Shown in pieces: positions 39,221 through 50,092 of a stretch of DNA of 64,000 bases. Under the pieces are notes generated by a model. The model was not told the DNA's origin, did not search any database, and saw only the letters and a program-made list of their open reading frames with translations. The stretch comes from Candidatus Aramenus sulfurataquae (GTDB lineage: Archaea; Thermoproteota; Thermoprotei_A; Sulfolobales; Sulfolobaceae): positions 124,001 through 188,000 of the forward strand of contig ASRH01000001.1 of the NCBI GenBank assembly GCA_000565255.1, written 5' to 3'. The position numbers were made by a program, and so were the translations under genes. Position 1 is the stretch's first letter. Each line of letters opens with the position of its first letter.

Positions 39221-39549
39221 AAGAAAGGTGCGGAGTGATTATAGGCGACTCGTTTTACGAGGTCAAAAATGTCTCTGACAGAGAAGACGAATTTGAAATG
39301 GATCCTCAACAACTTTACTCCCTTTTAAGTAAGGGAGAGCTTAGGGCGATAGTGCACACTCACAGCTTTTCTTGCATGCCGAGCGACAAGGACCTTCAAG
39401 GGATGAGAGCGTGGAAAGTGCCGTGGATAATAGTGTCTAGGGAGTGCGTGAAGACTTTCCAAGCTTCAGACCTCGGTGTATTTGAGGTCGATGTTAATTC
39501 CCTTCTCTTTAAGAAACTCCATGACCTTGCCGTGAAGCTTCTTAAGTAA
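39217..39549 (+). CDS. JAB/MPN (JAMM-type) metalloprotease-like protein
   Basis: About 110 aa from the ATG at 39217, which overlaps the preceding TGA (ATGA); an ATG three codons upstream is possible. The JAMM-like zinc signature HTHSFSCMPSDKDL (HxH...S-x2-D) is present near residue 47, with the spacing of the short prokaryotic JAB proteins. Such proteins cleave isopeptide or peptide bonds, for example after ubiquitin-like modifiers. No modifier gene is adjacent. The last 84 bp overlap the convergent helicase gene. Confidence 0.72.
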   Translation: MKERCGVIIGDSFYEVKNVSDREDEFEMDPQQLYSLLSKGELRAIVHTHSFSCMPSDKDLQGMRAWKVPWIIVSRECVKTFQASDLGVFEVDVNSLLFKKLHDLAVKLLK

Positions 39550-42090
39550 CTCTCTCTTATCCTCTGCTAACACCACATCCGCATACTCCTTGATTATTAT
39601 CCCATGAGCAAAGGGACTCGGGATCCTGTTTGGCCCTATTACCTCTACCTTCACGTTACCCTCTTGAACGTCCCTTACTATCTTAATTGCGTTTTGAATG
39701 TCCATGTAATCCTCTAGGATCTCCCTTATCGTCTCCTTCAGGACAGGAAAGTCCTTGTACTCCCTCACTACCTCAAGGAGCGCCTCAGAGTTAAGTTGTC
39801 TCCTGTCGGGGTTAGTCTCCTTACCTTTATACCTCTTCAATAACATGAAAGAGCGCTCAGCGGTCTGCCTAAATCTCCTCTTCAACATTTCCGTCCTTAC
39901 GATAACCTTACTGAGCAGGTCGTACATCTCCTCTGGCTTTATTTCGTTAAATATGTTACCTATATCATAATTTACTATACCTGGGAGAGTTAAGATAAAG
40001 CCGTTGTCGGTAACAGAGACCCTTACATCTGTGTTAAGCTTGTCGCTGAGCACAGACGCCAGTGCCCTAGAGAGCGCGTCTAGCGCTCTCCTACCATAGA
40101 GGGTGTGGAAAATGAAGTTCCTCCTATCCTCTTCATCATCATATATCTCAATAAGTATGGTCTTCTCGTTGGGAACTTTGCCCCCAGTGAAGTAAAACTC
40201 CTCAAGTACGTATTCGTAGACCGAGTAAGCCACGTTCCTGTTAACGTCATAGTTCTTGACAATATAATCGATTATCTCTTCCTCCCTTTTGCCTTCCCTT
40301 ATCATCTCCGCTATTTTACCCCTAAATGCGCTAACTTGGATTGCTGAATCAATAGCTAAAGGCAACATCTCGGAGAACCAGCTTGGCACTGTGGGTCTCT
40401 GACCTTCAGCTGGTTTAACTATCACCTTGTTCCCTCTGCTACCAATGAACTCAAACGTCCTGCCTCCAAGAACGAAAATGTCGCCTGGAGACAATATCTC
40501 TACAAATTCCTCTTCCAAGTTTCCTACGTACTTGTTCTCCTCCGTAAAGACGGGTATGAGGGGCTCATCCGGTATTGTACCGCTGTTTGTGTAGAATATC
40601 ATCCTCGCCCCCCTCTTTGGCTTTAGCGTTTTTCCGTCTTCCCTTACCTTGGAGTAAACGTTCCTGCTCTCCAACTCGTACTTACCCGTAAGGTAGTTTA
40701 AGACGCTCTCGTAGTCCCCCATGCTCAATTCAGAGAAACTGTAGGATTTCCTCAAAATGTTGTACAACTCGTCCTTGCTCGTCTTGCCCATTAGCGTTGA
40801 GGCGACAATCAGCTGAACCAGAACGTCCAGAGAGTTTTTGGGTATGTGGACCTTATCGATTTTCCTCTCTCTTGCTAGCTTGGCTAAGACCGTGCACTCG
40901 ACTAGGTCGTCCCTGTCCACCACTATTATCCTACCCTTACTAGTGCTCCTTATGTGATGCCCTGCCCTACCAAGCCTTTGTAAGAGCCTACTCACGCTCT
41001 TTGGACTTCCCAGCAGAAGGACTAGGTCTATGTATCCAATGTCTATCCCCAACTCCAGGCTGGTTGAGGACACAACTACCTTCAATTTCCCTTCCTTTAG
41101 CTTACTCTCGATCTCAAGTCTGAGGTCCCTGCTTAGGCTACTGTGATGTGCACCAACCATGTCTGCGTCAAAGAGCTTCTCTTGTTCTATGATCTTTCTG
41201 AGCTTATAGGACACCCTCTCAGCAGCACTCCTAGTATTTGTAAAGACCAAGATAGTTCTGTGCTTGTTTATCTCAGAAATCATGGTCTTGTATATCCCCT
41301 CGCTTATTTCGCTTTCCGAAGCGTGAACTAAGTCCTTTACTGGAGAGATTACCTTGATGTCCAGCCCCTTTACGAACCTCGCGTCCACAATCTTACACTC
41401 CCTCTCATTTCCTACCAAGAACTTCGCTACTTCCTCCAGAGGCGATATCGTTGCGCTGAGTCCTATCCTAACTACTTCGTTCTTAGCAAGGAGGTTCTGG
41501 TAAAGCTCTAGGAAACCGGATAGGTAAGCTCCACGCTTGGTATTGGCTAGTTCGTGTATCTCGTCGACCACGATCCATTTAGCCTCACTTAACCTTTGGC
41601 TAAACTTGGGTGAAGTTAACGATATGGCGAAGGACTCTGGGGTGGTTATCAAAATATGCGGTGGTTCCTTGAGCATTTTCTGCTTCTGGTAAGAAGTAGT
41701 GTCGCTCGTTCTTATGCCAACCCTGATCTTTTGCGGTATGTTAGCCCTTTGGTAGATTTCGTTAAGGGGTTCCATTAGGTTCTTGTACATGTCGTTGTTT
41801 AACGCCCTCAATGGCGATATGTAAATGACATATACTTTGTCCTCTAGCTCCCCCTTTTCTGCTAGCTCCAAAAGGGTGTCTAAAATGCCAAGGAAGGCTG
41901 AGAGGGTTTTCCCTGTCCCGGTGGGGCTGGAGATGAGGGTATTTACTCCCCTTTTTATGAGTGGGATTGCCCCCCTCTGGGGAGGAGTAAACGTCTTGTA
42001 CTTTTCCTTGAACCACTCGGCTACGTAAGGCCTCAGAAGGGAGAAGATATACTCGTCGTTGTACTGCTCCTTGACGTACTCAATCATCAC
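39466..42090 (-). CDS. Lhr-type superfamily 2 helicase (Hel112/aLhr2-like)
   Basis: 874 aa from a GTG (ATG is the next codon). Helicase motifs: Walker A SSPTGTGKT (about residues 54-62), motif Ia ISPLRALNND, DEIH box VVDEIHEL, SATISP, and motif VI QRLGRAGHH. A winged-helix and Lhr-specific C-terminal domain follow. Orthologues sit next to the ups pilus genes in Sulfolobales and have been linked there to DNA processing after UV damage. It is followed on the same strand by the glycosyltransferase, ParB-like and endonuclease III genes. Confidence 0.9.
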   Translation of the reverse strand: MMIEYVKEQYNDEYIFSLLRPYVAEWFKEKYKTFTPPQRGAIPLIKRGVNTLISSPTGTGKTLSAFLGILDTLLELAEKGELEDKVYVIYISPLRALNNDMYKNLMEPLNEIYQRANIPQKIRVGIRTSDTTSYQKQKMLKEPPHILITTPESFAISLTSPKFSQRLSEAKWIVVDEIHELANTKRGAYLSGFLELYQNLLAKNEVVRIGLSATISPLEEVAKFLVGNERECKIVDARFVKGLDIKVISPVKDLVHASESEISEGIYKTMISEINKHRTILVFTNTRSAAERVSYKLRKIIEQEKLFDADMVGAHHSSLSRDLRLEIESKLKEGKLKVVVSSTSLELGIDIGYIDLVLLLGSPKSVSRLLQRLGRAGHHIRSTSKGRIIVVDRDDLVECTVLAKLARERKIDKVHIPKNSLDVLVQLIVASTLMGKTSKDELYNILRKSYSFSELSMGDYESVLNYLTGKYELESRNVYSKVREDGKTLKPKRGARMIFYTNSGTIPDEPLIPVFTEENKYVGNLEEEFVEILSPGDIFVLGGRTFEFIGSRGNKVIVKPAEGQRPTVPSWFSEMLPLAIDSAIQVSAFRGKIAEMIREGKREEEIIDYIVKNYDVNRNVAYSVYEYVLEEFYFTGGKVPNEKTILIEIYDDEEDRRNFIFHTLYGRRALDALSRALASVLSDKLNTDVRVSVTDNGFILTLPGIVNYDIGNIFNEIKPEEMYDLLSKVIVRTEMLKRRFRQTAERSFMLLKRYKGKETNPDRRQLNSEALLEVVREYKDFPVLKETIREILEDYMDIQNAIKIVRDVQEGNVKVEVIGPNRIPSPFAHGIIIKEYADVVLAEDKRELLKKLHGKVMEFLKEKGINIDLKYTEV

Positions 42091-42140
42091 AAAGAAAATA
42101 GCTTACCAACCGAATAAAAAGACTTGTATCAACGGTATTT

Positions 42141-43517
42141 TCACTTATTAAGAAGCTCTGAAAAGAACGCGAAAAGATACCCAGCGGAATAGTAGGCAAG
42201 CCAGAGGCCACTTATAAACTCTTGCTTGAGGAAAAAGGAGACTGAGGCAAGCAGGAAGTAGAAGCCAAACACACCTATGATGTAAATTGCCTTTGTTTTT
42301 GTTATTTTCCCCTTTGGCGTTACAACGTAAGTCCTCCTCCCGCTAAAGGCCTTAAATATACTGATCAAGATAAAGGGCGATATGGCAACGCTATATGACG
42401 ACAATTTTCCTAGGCTTCTCAAGCTCTCTACTAACTTCATGCCTAGCTTCCTAGCGACATATACGAAGCTATAAACGTAAGACCCTAGAGCCAGGAGCCA
42501 TATTACAATTATTGGCGAGTTGAGGGGATCACCTTTCCCTATAAAGCCGTAGACCGAGAGGACAAGGGCGGACACAAACGTTATGGCGAAGGGAAAGTAC
42601 TGCATGAGGAAAAGGAACATATCTACCTTTCTGAGTAACCCTACGTTACTCTTAACTAAGTCCCTGAACCTCCTTATGAGCACTTCCGTACTGCCCATGG
42701 CCCATCTGGTCTGTTGAACGTAAAAGGCGTAGAAGTTGTCCGGCACCTCAACTTGCACAGGGGAGTTTGAGGAACATATCCTCTTCCCCCTCCGTATTAG
42801 CCTTGCGCCAATCTCGAGGTCGTCTTGAATCATGGTGTAGTCCCACTCGCCCACCTCTTCTATAGCCTTTCTCTTGAACATTGTACCACAACCCACAGGG
42901 AAAACCTTGAACCCTACCCTGTCCCTTCCGTTGAGAATCGAGTAGTCTGCCACCAGCGTCGAGACAAGAAGCCCCTTGGCTAACCTCGAGTAACTGTTCT
43001 TAGTGTAGCCAATCCAGTTCATAGTAACTGCGTCGCAACCGTAGCCCAGCATGTGAGCGTAAGCCCTCTTAAGCGAGTCCTTGTCCAGTCTGGCGTCGAC
43101 GTCTAGAGTTATGACTAGTTCTCCCCTGGACTTCTGAAACCCATAGGCAAGTGCACCGCTTTTGTATCCCTTCTTTTCCTTTCCTTCTCTATTGTACAAT
43201 CTCACTTCCAATCCCTGTGGGATCCTCAACGAGTTTAGCATCTTGTTGAAGTACTCCCTATCGTCATCCGAGATGATTATTACCTCCATTTTGCTCTTGT
43301 CCCACTCCACTTGGCTTAGATTGTCAAGCAGCCCTTGTATGACGTCAACGCTTTCTCCCTTGGTGGGCACCAGTATCGATATGAAAGGGTAATCCTTAAT
43401 GGTAACAGAGTCGTAATACCTACTTTTTCCCAGATAGAAGAAGATAAATTGATACAAAAGTACTAGAGACGGAATTATAAATAGTAGGACCTGCAATATT
43501 ACGTCAAATAAGCTCAT
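42141..43517 (-). CDS. Membrane glycosyltransferase, family 2 (cellulose-synthase-like)
   Basis: 458 aa. One N-terminal membrane helix (DVILQVLLFIIPSLVLLYQFIFFYL) is followed by a GT2 domain with SILVPTKGE, IISDDD, LDVDARLD (DxD metal site), QDDLEIG, and QQTRWAMG (Q-x-x-R-W acceptor/processive motif). Four to five C-terminal membrane helices follow. It belongs to the block next to the ups genes, where it may help make the cell-surface glycans recognised during species-specific aggregation. It overlaps the ParB-like gene by 14 bp. Confidence 0.87.
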   Translation of the reverse strand: MSLFDVILQVLLFIIPSLVLLYQFIFFYLGKSRYYDSVTIKDYPFISILVPTKGESVDVIQGLLDNLSQVEWDKSKMEVIIISDDDREYFNKMLNSLRIPQGLEVRLYNREGKEKKGYKSGALAYGFQKSRGELVITLDVDARLDKDSLKRAYAHMLGYGCDAVTMNWIGYTKNSYSRLAKGLLVSTLVADYSILNGRDRVGFKVFPVGCGTMFKRKAIEEVGEWDYTMIQDDLEIGARLIRRGKRICSSNSPVQVEVPDNFYAFYVQQTRWAMGSTEVLIRRFRDLVKSNVGLLRKVDMFLFLMQYFPFAITFVSALVLSVYGFIGKGDPLNSPIIVIWLLALGSYVYSFVYVARKLGMKLVESLRSLGKLSSYSVAISPFILISIFKAFSGRRTYVVTPKGKITKTKAIYIIGVFGFYFLLASVSFFLKQEFISGLWLAYYSAGYLFAFFSELLNK

Positions 43518-44094
43518 CTAGAGTTACTAGACGTGAGGGGATAATAAATTCATACATATGTCTGGTAGTCTTAGGAGGAAATCTCAGACCTCTCTTGGCA
43601 ATATCCACCACGTAGTCTTTAGATAGGGAAGGTGGTTCAAACCCCTTTTCGGGGTTTTTCGTTACCCTTATTCCTAGTTGGGCTAGACTTTCCTCGATCC
43701 AGTGCATTTTCCACAGCAAAGAATAAGGAGAAAACGAGCACACCCTATGGCCCAAGAAGTCGATGCAAACTTCTCCCTCACCCTCAAATTTAGACATGAA
43801 ACCGTTAGGAACCTTACCGTACACTTCCCTGAACCATTTACCTACTCTTATTCTCTCGTCCTTGTAGTCCAACAATATTGCCGGGATCTTCCTTATGCCT
43901 AGGATTTTCGCTGAGTAGTACCTATGATGACCATCTAAGATGACTAAGGAGTTCTTATCCACTATAATTGGGTGCATCGCCTTGTGGTTTTTCATATTGG
44001 AGATGGTCTGTAAGAGCTTATTCCTTATAACGTCCTCATGGGGAACTAGGCTATCTACCTCTAAACTCTGTATTGTAATATCGGCAGCACTCAC
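43504..44094 (-). CDS. ParB-fold protein resembling free serine kinase SerK
   Basis: 196 aa from a GTG start, 44 bp inside the end of the endonuclease III gene. Usually called ParB-like. PHE at residues 18-20 (catalytic Glu position in SerK), DGHHR at 54-58 and PPKTTRH at 173-179 match the archaeal ADP-dependent serine kinase family, as does the C-terminal LDELI. There is no helix-turn-helix of a true ParB partition protein. Possible roles are O-phosphoserine synthesis for cysteine or serine metabolism, or a nuclease-like function in the ups context. Which is correct is open. Confidence 0.75.
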   Translation of the reverse strand: MSAADITIQSLEVDSLVPHEDVIRNKLLQTISNMKNHKAMHPIIVDKNSLVILDGHHRYYSAKILGIRKIPAILLDYKDERIRVGKWFREVYGKVPNGFMSKFEGEGEVCIDFLGHRVCSFSPYSLLWKMHWIEESLAQLGIRVTKNPEKGFEPPSLSKDYVVDIAKRGLRFPPKTTRHMYEFIIPSRLVTLDELI

Positions 44095-44743
44095 CTATAA
44101 CGCACCTCTCGCACAGGGGCTTCCTAGCCTTGCAAGTATTTCTGCCGTGAGCTATTAATAGGTGATGGGCCCTCAGATAGTCCTTAGGCTGGAAGAGTCT
44201 CATGAGCCCTTTAGAGATCTCTTGGTACGTCGAACCCTTTATTCCTAAGCGCTCGGATATCCTCTTAATATGTGTGTCAACAGGAAAGTACTCGTAGCCC
44301 TTACAAGTTAGGAGAACTACGTCAGCAGTCTTCTCTCCAACCCCTGGCAACGCAAGGAGAGTCTTCCTGGCCTCTTCCTTCTGGAGGTTAAGTACGTGTT
44401 CTAAGGAACCGCTGTATTTCTCCAAGATTATGTTGGAGATCTCCTTTATCCTCTTGGCCTTAACGTTGTAGATCCCAATGTACCTTATCGCCTCCCCTAT
44501 CTCCCTTTCGTCGGCCGCGGCCAGCTTCTTGGGGGTCACCCCTACTCTCTTCTCAAGCTCCTCAAATGCCCTGTAGGTTCCCTTGTCCGTAGAGTTCTGA
44601 GAAAGGAGTGTGGCTATTAGTACCTTAAAGCAATCCCCAGTGTTAAGCCAAACGTCGTAGGCTACGAAGTCCTTTGGGTCTATCGTGTACTGCGACGCGA
44701 GCTTCTCTACAATGTAGTCTCCGCTACACCTTGGCCATTCCAC
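44051..44743 (-). CDS. nth: Endonuclease III (DNA glycosylase/AP lyase)
   Basis: 230 aa. Helix-hairpin-helix LPGVGEKTADVV with the catalytic Lys, catalytic Asp in FPVDTHIKRISERLG, and the C-terminal Fe-S loop CKARKPLCERCVIGECC (C-X6-C-X2-C-X5-C). Repairs oxidised pyrimidines. It is the gene that borders the ups cluster in Sulfolobales. Here the next gene on the far side is a small plus-strand HTH gene and then the UpsE-like gene. Confidence 0.94.
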   Translation of the reverse strand: MEWPRCSGDYIVEKLASQYTIDPKDFVAYDVWLNTGDCFKVLIATLLSQNSTDKGTYRAFEELEKRVGVTPKKLAAADEREIGEAIRYIGIYNVKAKRIKEISNIILEKYSGSLEHVLNLQKEEARKTLLALPGVGEKTADVVLLTCKGYEYFPVDTHIKRISERLGIKGSTYQEISKGLMRLFQPKDYLRAHHLLIAHGRNTCKARKPLCERCVIGECCRYYNTEFRGR

Positions 44744-44799: not shown

Positions 44800-45060
44800 A
44801 TGTACGAGATCAAAGTGGTCCTTGAGGCAATTAGGGAGGGGTCAGTTAATCCGGGCGAAGTAGTAATAAAGACTAAACTTCCTAGGTATGAGGTGTTGGC
44901 CCTATTTCACGTCCTAGAGGGTTTAGGGCTAATTGAGACGATCTATTCCAAGGGCTCTCATAAAGTGTATAGGCTCACAAAGAAAGGGGAAGAGATTCTA
45001 GAAGGACTAGAGAAAGGAGACGTAATCGATGTAGTAACGAGAGAGGCAACACAGACTTAG
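44800..45060 (+). CDS. Small winged-helix DNA-binding protein
   Basis: 86 aa. A single winged helix: VVIKTKLPRYEVLALFHVLEGLGLIETIYSKGSHKVYRLTKKG (about residues 21-63), with the wing at SKGSHKVYRLT. It sits between nth (divergent) and the UpsE-like gene (convergent, 7 bp away), in the place where pilin genes would be expected. Target genes are unknown. Confidence 0.78.
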   Translation: MYEIKVVLEAIREGSVNPGEVVIKTKLPRYEVLALFHVLEGLGLIETIYSKGSHKVYRLTKKGEEILEGLEKGDVIDVVTREATQT

Positions 45061-45067
45061 TCAGCCC

Positions 45068-46297
45068 TCATTTGCCTAGGTATTCTCGAAGAATTTGCCG
45101 TATCTGAATTTCGTCGCTCACGTTGTCTTCTACCACTCTTTCTAGGAGCTCTCTTCTGCTATGTAGCCTTTCACCAATATCGTTTAACCCGCCTTTATTA
45201 CGTAATGCAAGAGCCTTTGGCGATAGGTTTAATCTCCTCACAACCGTCTTTCTCCTAAGCTTATCCACAGAGTACACTCTCAAGTCCTTATCGTATATGG
45301 CTATGCCAGAGAGCCTAGCCAGGAACAAGTGCTTGTACCTTTTTCCTAAGTAGCTAACTATAAGGCTCATGATATCCCTGACGCTCCTCAGATCAGTAAA
45401 GAGTATCATACTATTACATGGACAACTAAGGAGGCTCTTGAGGAGGTTAAGACGCATGTCGGCTAAGACTACGTCAGGCTGAGAAGCAGCTAAGAAGTTC
45501 GAGAGGTCCTCTGAACTTATCCTCGCGTCTACCTTTAACCAGTTCCTTCCCTCGAAATTGAACTTAGGCGAGCTTTCGATAGTGACTATCTTTAAGTCAC
45601 TCTTGGACAATAACAAGATAGAGTTCATTAGGGCTTTAGTAGCGTAAGGGTTGCCGCCAATTACGTAAAGACCACCTTGCTCCATACCTTCCCATAGATA
45701 GGCTAAAGCGTCGAAATTGCATTTTAAATCTCTGCACACCTTAGATATGGAAGGAGTAGTGCTAAACCTCTTAATTACCTCTAGCTGGAAACCTTCTTCA
45801 GACTTGTATTCTACCACCTTGTGTCCTTCTGGAGTATAGGACTCCGCGTAAACGCCATCCTTCCCAAGGTTAAACCTATCCTGAAGGTCCTCCAACTCCC
45901 TTTGGTCAACAAATATTAAGTTGCTTGCCAGTCTAAGATAGTTTTTAAACGTCGTATGAACCACTTTTACGGGAATCCCTAAGCCATAGCATTCCACTCT
46001 TTCTACTTTCTCGTCGTAAATAGGAATTGTCAAGTCGCCGTACTTGACCTTCTTGAACACGTAATAGCTTAGGAGCTCTGGATCTCCCTCAACCTTAGAC
46101 TCGCTAACCATCCGAAGTACTCGTTCGTAGGTAACGTTTACCTTTGACTTAAGAAGGGATTTTGCAAACTTTTCCACAGTCCTCTTAAGCTCGGGGTTAA
46201 GGTAGGGCTCTTGGACTAAGTAAAGTCCAACCCCATCTACGTCCTTTATAGTTACCGTGGCCGAGTACACTTTGTACTGGGCTAGTATTCTCTCCAT
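45068..46297 (-). CDS. UpsE/GspE-like type IV pilus ATPase, catalytically degenerate
   Basis: 409 aa. The whole length follows the archaeal secretion ATPase pattern. YxV-x-EPYLNPEL is in the N-domain, VERVECYGLGIPVKVVH about residues 98-114, EVIKRFSTTPSISKV at 173-187, and DALAYLWEGMEQGGLYVIGG before the P-loop. Catalytic parts are lost. GGNPYATK (214-221) replaces the Walker A GGTxxGKT, IVTIESSP (237-244) stands for IVTIEDTP, PDVVLADMR (274-282) replaces a Walker B ending in GE-x-R, and no His box is present around 288-305. It is shorter than typical UpsE. It follows the UpsX-like gene by 25 bp. Most likely an inactive remnant or a repurposed scaffold. Confidence 0.72.
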   Translation of the reverse strand: MERILAQYKVYSATVTIKDVDGVGLYLVQEPYLNPELKRTVEKFAKSLLKSKVNVTYERVLRMVSESKVEGDPELLSYYVFKKVKYGDLTIPIYDEKVERVECYGLGIPVKVVHTTFKNYLRLASNLIFVDQRELEDLQDRFNLGKDGVYAESYTPEGHKVVEYKSEEGFQLEVIKRFSTTPSISKVCRDLKCNFDALAYLWEGMEQGGLYVIGGNPYATKALMNSILLLSKSDLKIVTIESSPKFNFEGRNWLKVDARISSEDLSNFLAASQPDVVLADMRLNLLKSLLSCPCNSMILFTDLRSVRDIMSLIVSYLGKRYKHLFLARLSGIAIYDKDLRVYSVDKLRRKTVVRRLNLSPKALALRNKGGLNDIGERLHSRRELLERVVEDNVSDEIQIRQILREYLGK

Positions 46298-46322
46298 ACC
46301 ACTCTTAGCAATTTAAGAGAAG

Positions 46323-48317
46323 TTACGCGAGTCCGAAACTACTCAGTATCTCCCGGAGCTTTACTGAGTCGAGCAATGCCTTCTTAAGGGCCGTATCCAT
46401 TGTTCCAAGCTTAAAATCTTGTGTCACTGTTCTTACCCCTATGTAACTCCTGATCCTTATCGTATTCCACGAAGGATCAAAGGGAAACAGTATCTTAGCA
46501 GGAAAACCCCTGTAGACATTTAGGCCGTAGAAGACCTCCATGGGAAACGTGAAGAAAGTGACGGGTTTTACGATCAAGTAATTCTCCTCGAGGGTTACCT
46601 CTAGCCTTATGACCGGCCTCTTCACGCCTAGAACGTCGTAGCATACTTCGTCAAAGCCACGTGAGAAGCAAACGCTCTGAAAACCATTCTTTACCTCTAT
46701 TTCCCTGCCTTCAAGAGTGACATTCTCGCCAGAAACCCCGATTATCAGTCCCCTGAAGTAGTTGGGGTAATGCCTTACTCTTTCCCAAGTAAATACCCCA
46801 TCATCCCTCAAAAAGCTCAACTCTCTAACGTGACCGCGGTTCCTGGCCAGCTTGACTACCTTGATTGGCGGATTCACCAACTTAACTGGAACGACGAAGT
46901 CCTTAAGAAAGGAAACGCCTTTACCCCTAATTAGGTACGCCGAGACCACCACGTTATCCTCAGGATGACTGAGGCTTAATGGTTGGACGACGTTAATAAC
47001 GCCCTTGGTGTTTTTCACTTCCAACCTAGCCTCTTGGTTGCCTACCTTTAACGATATGCCCGTAGGAAGCCTAGTTGGAATTTCGTATGCTAATACGCCC
47101 TTGAGTAGCGCGTTGTGCTCAGTGCCCTTCACTTTGCCCTCTGGAGAGTACATAACCTCGCCATCAAAGCTTACCCTAGGTTTTTCCGAGGAAAACTTCA
47201 GTATCCTACTTTCGGAGTAAAAAGGGTTCCAGAGCGCGATCTCAACTTCGGCGTTCTCAAAATGTTCTGGCTCTAGCTCTACGATTCTGTAATCATCCAT
47301 TTCCTCCTCGCTCACCACAACCAGAGGTTTGCTAAAACTAACGTTAAAGTATTTATCGTACGCTATCCTTATTTTCGAGGTTGCGCTATTTTTGTCGTTA
47401 ATCACCCTTAGAATCCCCCTGCTGATTCCGCTATCCACAACTCCAAAGTAATTGGTTTCCGACAAGGCAAAAAGCCTCCTGTTGTCAGCTACGACGCTGG
47501 AGGGCTTTAGGGAGAAGATGGGGTTGAGCTCCGAGTCGTACACAGACGTATTTTCCATGGAACCCAAGATTAGAAAATTAGAGTTAACGTAGCTTCTGTC
47601 CTCTGTCGCCTCGGCCTCGATTTGCGTCCAGCTCCAGTTGCTGAAGATTTTCGCTGAGGAATCGCAGAGGAACACAATTTTATCTAACATTTCGCCGAGA
47701 AAATAGGAAGAGCCGTTGCAGAATCCTATTAGCCTATCTTCAAGGTAAATCCTATTTCCGCGCTTAAAGACCTTTCCTCTAGAGGTTAAGCCTAGGAAGT
47801 AACCCTCTCTTTTGAAGGAAGTCACGTTTAGCTTTTCGTCTATCACCTTAGTTTCTCCCTCAAATACTAATGAGGTAAACCTTCTCGTGACGTAGAAGTC
47901 TAGAGGGGCTTCTAGCTCCAACATCTTGCCTTGAGCAAAGAGCAAAGCCCTCCGCTTTCCCGCTAGCAGCGTCCTTCCCATGTACCTTATTAGTTTAAAG
48001 AACTGCTCCCCTTCAAACGAGTACCAATCCCCCACTCTCACAATCTCGTAAAAAGAATCCTCCACCCTCACGAAGACTACATCTGCGTGGTTGCTAGTTC
48101 TCATAACTTCGCTCTTGCCCTTGGAAAAGGAGATAATGGAGTTACCCTTCTGGTAAATCCACTTTCCTTCTCCTAGTTGGAGTTCAGGGTAGAGTGAGGC
48201 CCTAGGCTCTTCCAATGCCTCTGAGTTTAACTTAACCTTGGAGTCCTCAAAGTCTAGCCAGAAATTTATTGGAGGTAGCTCTAGCTTAGTAAGGTACGTA
48301 AATACTGGATGTTTCAT
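46323..48317 (-). CDS. UpsX-like protein of unknown function
   Basis: 664 aa, predicted mostly beta, no signal peptide and no membrane segment. Many short strand-turn units with W/Y and G (for example YFLGLTSRGKVFKRGNRIYLEDR and VVDSGISRGILRV) suggest a beta-propeller-like first half followed by immunoglobulin-like segments. Identification as UpsX rests on size, on position directly upstream of a UpsE-like gene, and on the surrounding ups-associated block; sequence similarity to UpsX could not be tested. In Sulfolobus UpsX has no known function. It lies 25 bp after cbiE, with its own TATA-like box. Confidence 0.6.
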   Translation of the reverse strand: MKHPVFTYLTKLELPPINFWLDFEDSKVKLNSEALEEPRASLYPELQLGEGKWIYQKGNSIISFSKGKSEVMRTSNHADVVFVRVEDSFYEIVRVGDWYSFEGEQFFKLIRYMGRTLLAGKRRALLFAQGKMLELEAPLDFYVTRRFTSLVFEGETKVIDEKLNVTSFKREGYFLGLTSRGKVFKRGNRIYLEDRLIGFCNGSSYFLGEMLDKIVFLCDSSAKIFSNWSWTQIEAEATEDRSYVNSNFLILGSMENTSVYDSELNPIFSLKPSSVVADNRRLFALSETNYFGVVDSGISRGILRVINDKNSATSKIRIAYDKYFNVSFSKPLVVVSEEEMDDYRIVELEPEHFENAEVEIALWNPFYSESRILKFSSEKPRVSFDGEVMYSPEGKVKGTEHNALLKGVLAYEIPTRLPTGISLKVGNQEARLEVKNTKGVINVVQPLSLSHPEDNVVVSAYLIRGKGVSFLKDFVVPVKLVNPPIKVVKLARNRGHVRELSFLRDDGVFTWERVRHYPNYFRGLIIGVSGENVTLEGREIEVKNGFQSVCFSRGFDEVCYDVLGVKRPVIRLEVTLEENYLIVKPVTFFTFPMEVFYGLNVYRGFPAKILFPFDPSWNTIRIRSYIGVRTVTQDFKLGTMDTALKKALLDSVKLREILSSFGLA

Positions 48318-48330
48318 TTGGCCTAGGTGT

Positions 48331-48340
48331 TAAATTTAGA
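48331..48340 (-). promoter_or_regulatory. TATA-like box upstream of the UpsX-like gene
   Basis: TCTAAATTTA on the minus strand, 14-23 bp upstream of the ATG at 48317, slightly closer than ideal. An ATTTTC hexamer, matching the A(N)TTTC element of UV-induced Sulfolobales promoters, lies further upstream at 48355-48360 (minus), inside the end of cbiE. Confidence 0.35.
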
Positions 48341-48342
48341 AC

Positions 48343-48978
48343 TCACGGTTTCACGAAAATAACCGCAAGCCCTTTGAGGTCTAGGCTAGCTAGCTCAGAG
48401 GCCTTCCCCCTTATAACCTTTTCCGTAGGAAGGCTAAGGTCTAGGCACACTCCCACTTCTGCATCCCGTCTAACCCCGTGAGCGATTAGGTTCCTTATGT
48501 TATCCCCTACGGAGAGATATGGATTAGGTAAAACGTAAACCCCTAGCCCTAGATTGAGCGCTTTCGACACCTTATCTGCCTTGTTATCGTACCTAAGCGA
48601 AATAATCGCGGAGTCGTCTAACCTTTCCCCAAGACGAGAGGCGCAAAGTTGAACTGAGCTCACTCCGGGCTCCACATAGGGGGTCTTTATCACCTTCCCA
48701 AGCCCCGCCAACATTGGATCCCCCGTGGACAGGAATACCTTAGTCCCCTCCAGCTTCTTTGCCTCCTCTAGTTGGCTGTAGAACTCCGAGTCTGACCTAA
48801 GGTAAATTAGCTCCGCGTCAGTTAACGCTTTCAAGCTCTCTAGAATCCTCTTGTCGCCTATCACGTAATCCGCTACCTTGATCTCCTCGATTAACTTTAG
48901 GGTGAAGTAGCTGTAATGGCCTGGACCGGCCCCTATAACCTTAACGTAAGTACTTTTCGCTTCCTTTCGAGTAGCCAA
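48343..48978 (-). CDS. cbiE: Cobalt-precorrin-7 (C5)-methyltransferase, CbiE
   Basis: 211 aa. SAM-dependent tetrapyrrole methyltransferase. The N-terminal VKVIGAGPGHYSYFTL, LSTGDPMLAGLGK and PGVSSVQLCASRLG segments are the standard CbiE/CobL-N signatures. It methylates C5 late in corrin synthesis; the decarboxylating partner CbiT is not in the window. It overlaps cbiD by 38 bp, and no better start is available downstream. Confidence 0.87.
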   Translation of the reverse strand: MATRKEAKSTYVKVIGAGPGHYSYFTLKLIEEIKVADYVIGDKRILESLKALTDAELIYLRSDSEFYSQLEEAKKLEGTKVFLSTGDPMLAGLGKVIKTPYVEPGVSSVQLCASRLGERLDDSAIISLRYDNKADKVSKALNLGLGVYVLPNPYLSVGDNIRNLIAHGVRRDAEVGVCLDLSLPTEKVIRGKASELASLDLKGLAVIFVKP

Positions 48979-50092
48979 CTATATCTCCCTTCATGTTGAT
49001 GAGGATGGTGTAAACTTTTGACCTTTTTTGCACTAGCTCCTCGGCGTTCTGGGATATCTTGTCTGCAATGTCGCTAAAGATTTCGAAGTAGTTATAGTTT
49101 GATAGCAGGTCTATTGCCTCGTCTGTGGTCTTGCACTCAAAAATCTTCCTGATCACATCGCTCCCTACTCCGTGCTTCGCTGCGTACGCCGCTATGGTCT
49201 CTATCCTTCCATCGCCATACTTATAGTGGGTATTCCAGATCTTGATGGCGTTTTTGACCATTTTCCCCACGTGACCCATGAGGACAATTTCCTTAAAACC
49301 CCTTTTAGCTGCTGCCTTAACCATTCCTCCCACGAAGATCGCCATTTGGACTATGGACCCTGGGTCTACGTTGAGCAACTTCCTTGCGGCGGTTTCGCCT
49401 ATGTTTCCTGGCACCATAACAACCGTGGTATAGCCCTTCTCCTTTACAACGTCCAGCTGTTCCACCATTGAGGCGAACCACGAGATTAAGCTCATAGGTT
49501 TCACTATACCACTTGTGCCCAGTACTGAAACCCCTCCCTCTATTCCAAGCCTCGGGTTGAAAGTTCTCTGGGCTATCCTCTCTCCATCTGGTGCATCTAC
49601 TACAACCTCTGCCCCAAACTTATCCCCTAAAATCTCCTTTAGGTTGTCTATCAACTGCTTCCTCGGCACTGGGTTTATTGCTGGCTCGCCCTCTTCTACG
49701 GGAAGCCCTCTAGTCCTTGCAACCCCGATGCCCTTACCTGCTATTAGTGTAACGTAACCAACGTCATCGTTTAACCTCATCCTAACCCTGAACTCCATTC
49801 CGTTTGTATCGTCAGGGTCGTCGCCCCCGTTCTTGGTAACGCTAGCCTCAGCCCACTCGCCCTCAAGCTTTACGTAGTTTACAGGGATCTCTATCCTTAA
49901 GCCAATTGGCGTTGACACAACTACGGCGTTTACTAGTTTGCCGTACTTCAAGGCTATCGCGCAAGCCTTAGCCCCCGCAGCTATGGTGCTCCCAGTCGTG
50001 TAGCCGAACTTCATAATCTGTCTCTTGGCTACTTTAGCGTTGGAGAGGGAAGGGCTCTTGGGATTGTAATCCAGGGGAATCCTTACGCTCAT
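48941..50092 (-). CDS. cbiD: Cobalt-precorrin-5B (C1)-methyltransferase, CbiD
   Basis: 383 aa. CbiD signatures include KFGYTTGSTIAAGAKACAIAL near the N-terminus, VTKNGGDDPDDTNGMEF, and GTSGIVKPMS in the middle. CbiD marks the oxygen-independent (early cobalt) route to cobalamin. It overlaps the upstream methyltransferase gene by 4 bp and cbiE by 38 bp. Confidence 0.93.
   Translation of the reverse strand: MSVRIPLDYNPKSPSLSNAKVAKRQIMKFGYTTGSTIAAGAKACAIALKYGKLVNAVVVSTPIGLRIEIPVNYVKLEGEWAEASVTKNGGDDPDDTNGMEFRVRMRLNDDVGYVTLIAGKGIGVARTRGLPVEEGEPAINPVPRKQLIDNLKEILGDKFGAEVVVDAPDGERIAQRTFNPRLGIEGGVSVLGTSGIVKPMSLISWFASMVEQLDVVKEKGYTTVVMVPGNIGETAARKLLNVDPGSIVQMAIFVGGMVKAAAKRGFKEIVLMGHVGKMVKNAIKIWNTHYKYGDGRIETIAAYAAKHGVGSDVIRKIFECKTTDEAIDLLSNYNYFEIFSDIADKISQNAEELVQKRSKVYTILINMKGDIVGYSKGSEKYLR

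Follow-up and report, generated by a model that had tools for sequence, protein, structure and literature searches.

A putative pseudo-ATPase descended from UpsE persists beside upsX in Aramenus genomes that have lost upsF, upsA and upsB

The window analyzed here is a stretch of 64,000 nucleotides from the genome of the hot-spring archaeon Candidatus Aramenus sulfurataquae (AZ1), and it contains what is left of an ups cluster. The upsX gene (46323-48317, reverse strand; 664 aa; NCBIfam UpsX NF046072, E 1e-166) is followed, after a gap of 25 bp, by a gene that we call upsE' (45068-46297, reverse strand), which encodes a catalytically degenerate UpsE orthologue of 409 aa in a frame that runs from ATG to stop without interruption. 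The order upsX-upsE is found throughout the Sulfolobaceae, mostly with identical flanks. In place of the upsF, upsA and upsB genes of the relatives there is a gap of only 7 bp (45061-45067), so that upsE' directly meets a converging winged-helix gene of the SSO5209 family (44800-45060, forward strand; NF053658, synteny). Next comes a retained downstream block with the DNA-repair genes (39466-44743, reverse strand; ORFs, Pfam and synteny), whose genes have omega (dN/dS) values of 0.07-0.22 and encode an endonuclease III (EndoIII, 44051-44743), a ParB-like protein (43504-44094), a glycosyltransferase (42141-43517) and a helicase (39466-42090). Together with the SSO5209 gene, these make up the syntenic flanks of the cluster.

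An earlier note, made from the sequence alone, had described UpsE' as aligning along its whole length with GspE, FlaI and UpsE proteins. Indeed, the UpsE homologues of other Sulfolobaceae align with it from end to end, at 22-29% identity, while their own mean pairwise identity is 50%. In the profile search that the note had proposed, NCBIfam BasE (E 2e-13) and FlaI (E 3e-8) match the first ~264 residues of UpsE'. Among the 27 members scanned with Pfam T2SSE (PF00437), the 25 that match are all 25 canonical UpsE proteins; UpsE' lies outside this group and matched 0 Pfam families. In a maximum-likelihood tree, UpsE' and the copy from a second Aramenus species fall within the UpsE clade, apart from the GspE/FlaI-type paralogues, with SH-aLRT values of 87-95 at the relevant forks in what was a quick search with no bootstrap. 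Their neighbors are a group whose named members are Metallosphaera, although the stem branch of the Aramenus copies is so long (3.14 changes per site; sister group, 0.17) that the exact sister group is less certain. The position behind upsX supports the same origin independently of the tree, and UpsE' descends from UpsE. The description of the frame as full-length holds for its openness and for the predicted fold, but not for its length: canonical UpsE proteins mostly measure 460-487 aa, ~50-80 residues more than UpsE', which is short because of in-frame internal deletions and the loss of the last ~8-10 residues, the region where canonical upsE runs into upsF.

All four catalytic motifs of UpsE' are degraded in the alignment. 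The Walker A loop (residues 214-221; 45635-45658, reverse strand, as are the other motifs) reads GGNPYATK where the canonical sequence is GxTGSGKT; the Asp box (residues 240-245; 45563-45580) reads IESSPK rather than IEDTPE; Walker B (residues 279-282; 45452-45463) reads ADMR rather than GEVR, with the catalytic Glu changed to Asp; and the His box (canonical HASASGHGSLxTFH) is missing from its site at residues 291-304 (45386-45427), which reads SCPCNSMILFTDLR. UpsE' therefore fails the patterns for Walker A (GxxGxGK[ST]), for a Walker B with the catalytic Glu (GE-x-R), for the Asp box and for the His box. The earlier note had read the Walker A, Walker B and His box changes correctly; its statement that every catalytic signature was lost goes a little too far, since four canonical residues survive: G215, which is the first glycine of the P-loop, K221, the Walker A Lys, E241, with which the Asp box's two acidic positions begin, and R282, the Arg of GE-x-R. 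The sister-species protein, 86% identical and from an independent assembly, is in the same degraded state, with GGNLNATK as Walker A, VESSPK as Asp box, ADMR as Walker B and no His box. The other 29 UpsE copies examined in the family all carry an intact Walker A and the GE-x-R end of Walker B, and the strict Asp- and His-box patterns missed one or two of them by a single conservative change each, so that all 29 are, to judge from their motifs, catalytically intact. No intact upsE copy was found in the two genomes of the genus Aramenus.

The losses are unevenly distributed along the protein. Of the positions whose conservation in canonical UpsE reaches 92% or more, both Aramenus species keep 5/6 in residues 1-94, 15/42 in the second N-terminal part and 20/63 in the ATPase domain. 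Within the C-terminal part, motif residues were kept less often than other conserved residues (5/26 against 15/37, a split counted by hand), but not significantly so (Fisher p = 0.10).

We then compared a predicted structure of UpsE' with solved folds, including FlaI, as the earlier note had suggested. The AlphaFold2 model (mean pLDDT 82.6, from a 27-sequence alignment) has an N-terminal domain and a RecA-like C-terminal domain, and its top Foldseek matches are GspE 2oap and FlaI 4ihq/4ii7 (E 2e-22 to 4e-24, TM 0.63-0.75), which rules out a different fold. In the model, one strand ends at residue 215 and a helix already starts at 217, so that helix takes the place of the phosphate loop. Because the alignment consists mostly of canonical relatives, the method is in part predisposed to return the retained fold; the missing P-loop runs counter to that bias. 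In other words, UpsE' is predicted to keep the FlaI/GspE fold without its P-loop. The note had named a different fold, or orthologues with intact Walker motifs, as evidence that would speak against its proposal; the modeled fold is that of the secretion ATPases, and the other orthologue found in the genus is in the same dead state.

What the earlier note left out is the loss of the pilus itself. The UpsF profile matched strongly in 4/4 control genomes and in neither of the Aramenus genomes, and the UpsA profile has a single match in AZ1 (E 0.02), which is located in the archaellum operon; relocation of upsF or of a pilin gene to another part of the genome was rejected on these grounds, and upsF, upsA and upsB are absent from both genomes. 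In the sister genome, a query with one UpsA sequence returned one weak, pilin-like match (E 0.009; contig C1, 140281-140505). Among the family genomes compared, complete loss of upsFAB occurs only in Aramenus. The sole other genome without adjacent pilins is that of Sulfolobales archaeon HS-7, where upsA and upsB (contig C1, 988563-989337) lie ~870 kb away from upsXEF; its UpsE is intact and has upsF alongside, the match to which holds one TAG in the profile alignment. The loss of the pilus genes and the loss of catalysis thus coincide in one lineage, and the absence of the pilus explains why ATPase activity would no longer be needed.

Other machinery is still present. CedB is retained in Aramenus, CedD is retained in AZ1, with a matching DUF87 protein of equal length in the sister genome, and both genomes have one T2SSE/T2SSF pair (in AZ1 on contig C3; 574 and 617 aa) with an intact Walker A. 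AZ1 also has a complete-looking archaellum operon (contig C15, 10986-17017); in the sister genome, the search for an archaellum ATPase gave no match. An assembly labeled Euryarchaeota CPBay_Spr30G08_79 carries, on contig C69, a second and diverged fragment of an ups cluster, possibly as a result of contamination or strain mixture.

The upstream neighbor, UpsX, is found in 30/31 Sulfolobaceae genomes and in 28/28 of the good ones, including those where pilus genes were lost or moved. Its omega of 0.25 is near the normal range (0.15-0.2 in most comparable pairs). Pfam gave no match in any of 27 UpsX members; the AlphaFold2 model (pLDDT 89.4) shows an N-terminal beta-propeller, Ig-like beta domains and a C-terminal helix. 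Foldseek returned many beta-propeller and Ig matches, but with low TM values, which support a fold class and not a function; the predicted make-up is one typical of a scaffold. In Sulfolobus acidocaldarius, deletion of upsX left pili unaffected and halved DNA transfer (PMC3892339).

In UV-inducible ups promoters, an A(N)TTTC box occupies positions -44 to -39 relative to the start of transcription (PMC5817253). On the reverse strand of the window, the box AGTTTC (46335-46340) lies 43 nt upstream of the upsE' start codon and is followed after 16 nt by the AT-rich TCTTAAAT (46311-46318), and the box ATTTTC (48355-48360) lies 43 nt upstream of the upsX start codon and is followed after 16 nt by the TATA-like TAAATTTA (48331-48338). 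Both boxes are kept in the sister species. In a scripted count, only 2 of the 61 ORFs in the window have an A(N)TTTC hexamer at -50 to -36, namely upsX (with the full motif) and upsE'. As far as their sequences tell, upsX and upsE' therefore fit the pattern of DNA-damage-inducible ups promoters, a box ~15 nt ahead of a TATA element, although the conservation could be partly coding, since the upsE' box overlaps the 3' coding end of upsX and the upsX box overlaps cbiL. The cobalamin genes cbiL-cbiD (48343-50092) directly precede upsX in Aramenus, as they do in the majority of the Metallosphaera group, which places the upsX box in the 3' end of cbiL. Many Sulfolobaceae, a wider set than the species tested in PMC5817253, have this layout ahead of upsX, upsE or both, with the A(N)TTTC box at roughly -43 to -47 relative to the start codon, then 15-16 nt and an AT-rich, TATA-like segment.

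The earlier note had suggested selection for a non-ATPase function rather than decay, and had proposed a comparison of dN/dS across relatives. Between the two Aramenus species, UpsE' has a dN of 0.080, a dS of 0.223 and an omega of 0.36, a pairwise average from one species pair (two genomes) that is significantly below 1 (2dlnL 27.6, p = 1.5e-7). The most constrained part is formed by residues 1-100 (45998-46297, reverse strand; omega 0.12-0.15), which lie below the rest of the protein (p = 0.004), yet the C-terminal domain is also below 1 (omega 0.44, LRT 10, p = 0.0016). In neutral simulations at the observed dS, ~7 stop codons are expected across both lineages, and both frames stayed open in 0.02% of the runs (P ~0.0002). 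Since the dead state is common to both species, catalytic loss predates their split, and upsE' has been under real purifying selection since then. This selection is relaxed: close species pairs of canonical UpsE have omega values of 0.05-0.12, so that UpsE' evolves at 3-7 times the canonical value, and the ratio of dN(UpsE) to dN(UpsX) is 1.34 in Aramenus against 0.24-0.46 in canonical pairs. The part of the proposal that concerned selection therefore stands, on the omega value and on open frames in two species, while constraint is weaker than in canonical UpsE and a positive function follows only by inference.

These numbers also bear on whether upsE' is a relic in slow decay, which ceased to function when the pilus was lost and is not yet fully eroded, its low omega reflecting constraint that lingered early after the species split or a cost of misfolded protein. 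The raised omega and the raised UpsE/UpsX ratio are what such decay would give, as is the loss of about two thirds of the otherwise conserved residues beyond NTD1. However, the C-terminal domain has stayed below an omega of 1 in the time since catalysis was lost, the frames are open despite the stop codons expected, and the promoter box is kept. A plain pseudogene is already contradicted by the open frame and the omega value, and we consider slow decay unlikely.

We favor the reading, with a probability of roughly 0.55, that UpsE' is a pseudo-ATPase which has been retained to work, independently of ATP, as a scaffold, most probably together with UpsX, in a DNA-damage function that does not involve a pilus. 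A motor that selection has kept while its ATP site was destroyed suggests a second, energy-independent job for this motor and for its neighbor UpsX. The Aramenus ancestor would have lost the pilus platform (upsF) and the pilins (upsA, upsB), and the catalytic site, no longer needed, would have been erased afterwards; that the two losses occur together comes from the comparison, and their order is our proposal. UpsE' would have kept the two-domain shape of a secretion ATPase, as modeled, and would act through protein-protein scaffolding without ATP, its N-terminal domain docking on a partner, most plausibly the UpsX encoded immediately upstream. The UpsX-UpsE' pair, made on DNA damage, may then support DNA exchange or processing beside the retained Ced import proteins.

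UpsE' might instead be an accessory, non-catalytic subunit that joins the hexamers of the remaining T2SSE/T2SSF pair, as PilU assists PilT. The presence of that pair in both genomes and the predicted retention of a hexamer-forming overall fold fit this idea; however, upsE' is not genetically linked to the pair, and the domain that forms the contacts within the ring, the C-terminal one, is under weaker constraint than residues 1-100, making such a role quite improbable. We give still less credit to a divergent ATPase that continues to bind nucleotide through K221 and D280, the former Walker B Glu: although K221, E241 and R282 are invariant in the alignment and D280 is common to both Aramenus species, UpsE' has lost both later P-loop glycines, the Ser/Thr that follows the Lys and the entire His box, its loop is not the same in the two species (NPYATK and NLNATK), and the model already enters its helix at residue 217. 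The AZ1 genome was assembled from a metagenome of 36-bp reads (PMC3945513), which could suggest a sequencing or assembly artefact; this can be dismissed, since the same degraded gene, at 86% identity, and the same upsFAB loss occur in the separate assembly of a second species.

A wider version of the scaffold reading, which we offer tentatively and regard as rather doubtful, is that a DNA-damage module made up of UpsX and UpsE works independently of the pilus across the Sulfolobales, and that Aramenus has been stripped down to this module alone, with the secretion-ATPase fold serving as a purely structural adaptor. If this were true, pilus assembly would normally mask a second role of the Ups ATPase, one that needs no ATP. 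Aramenus is in any case a natural pilus knock-out that retains just these two genes, upsX and upsE', and it makes testable what roles UpsE and UpsX, the latter universal in the family, have beyond pilus assembly.

Among kinases and proteases, pseudoenzymes are a familiar phenomenon. The literature that we searched contains no description of an assembly ATPase, of a type IV pilus or secretion system, that is naturally dead and fixed in a lineage; from its sequence, UpsE' appears to be such a lineage-fixed pseudo-ATPase, one that has outlived its pilus. It resembles UpsE, the ATPase that assembles the UV-inducible pili of Sulfolobales, in its position behind upsX, its place in the tree, its fold and its N-terminal domain, and differs from it in that none of the four motifs (Walker A, Walker B, Asp box, His box) is usable, in being about 65 residues shorter and in having no UpsF, UpsA or UpsB as partners. 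FlaI/ArlI and archaeal GspE (PDB 4ii7, 4ihq, 2oap) are the closest solved folds, but they bind and hydrolyze ATP, while UpsE' has no P-loop and only 17-19% identity to them. The degenerate ups cluster of Acidianus hospitalis (PMC3892339) likewise shows partial loss of pilus genes with upsX kept; no loss of UpsE catalysis was reported there, whereas in Aramenus upsF is wholly gone and UpsE is to all appearances catalytically dead. A precedent comes from Myxococcus, where an ATPase-deficient PilB (a Walker A mutant) supports exopolysaccharide signaling without pili (PMC5544727): as we propose for UpsE', a pilus-assembly ATPase works there without hydrolysis or pili, although that protein is a bacterial laboratory mutant of an active enzyme, and UpsE' would be a natural pseudoenzyme.
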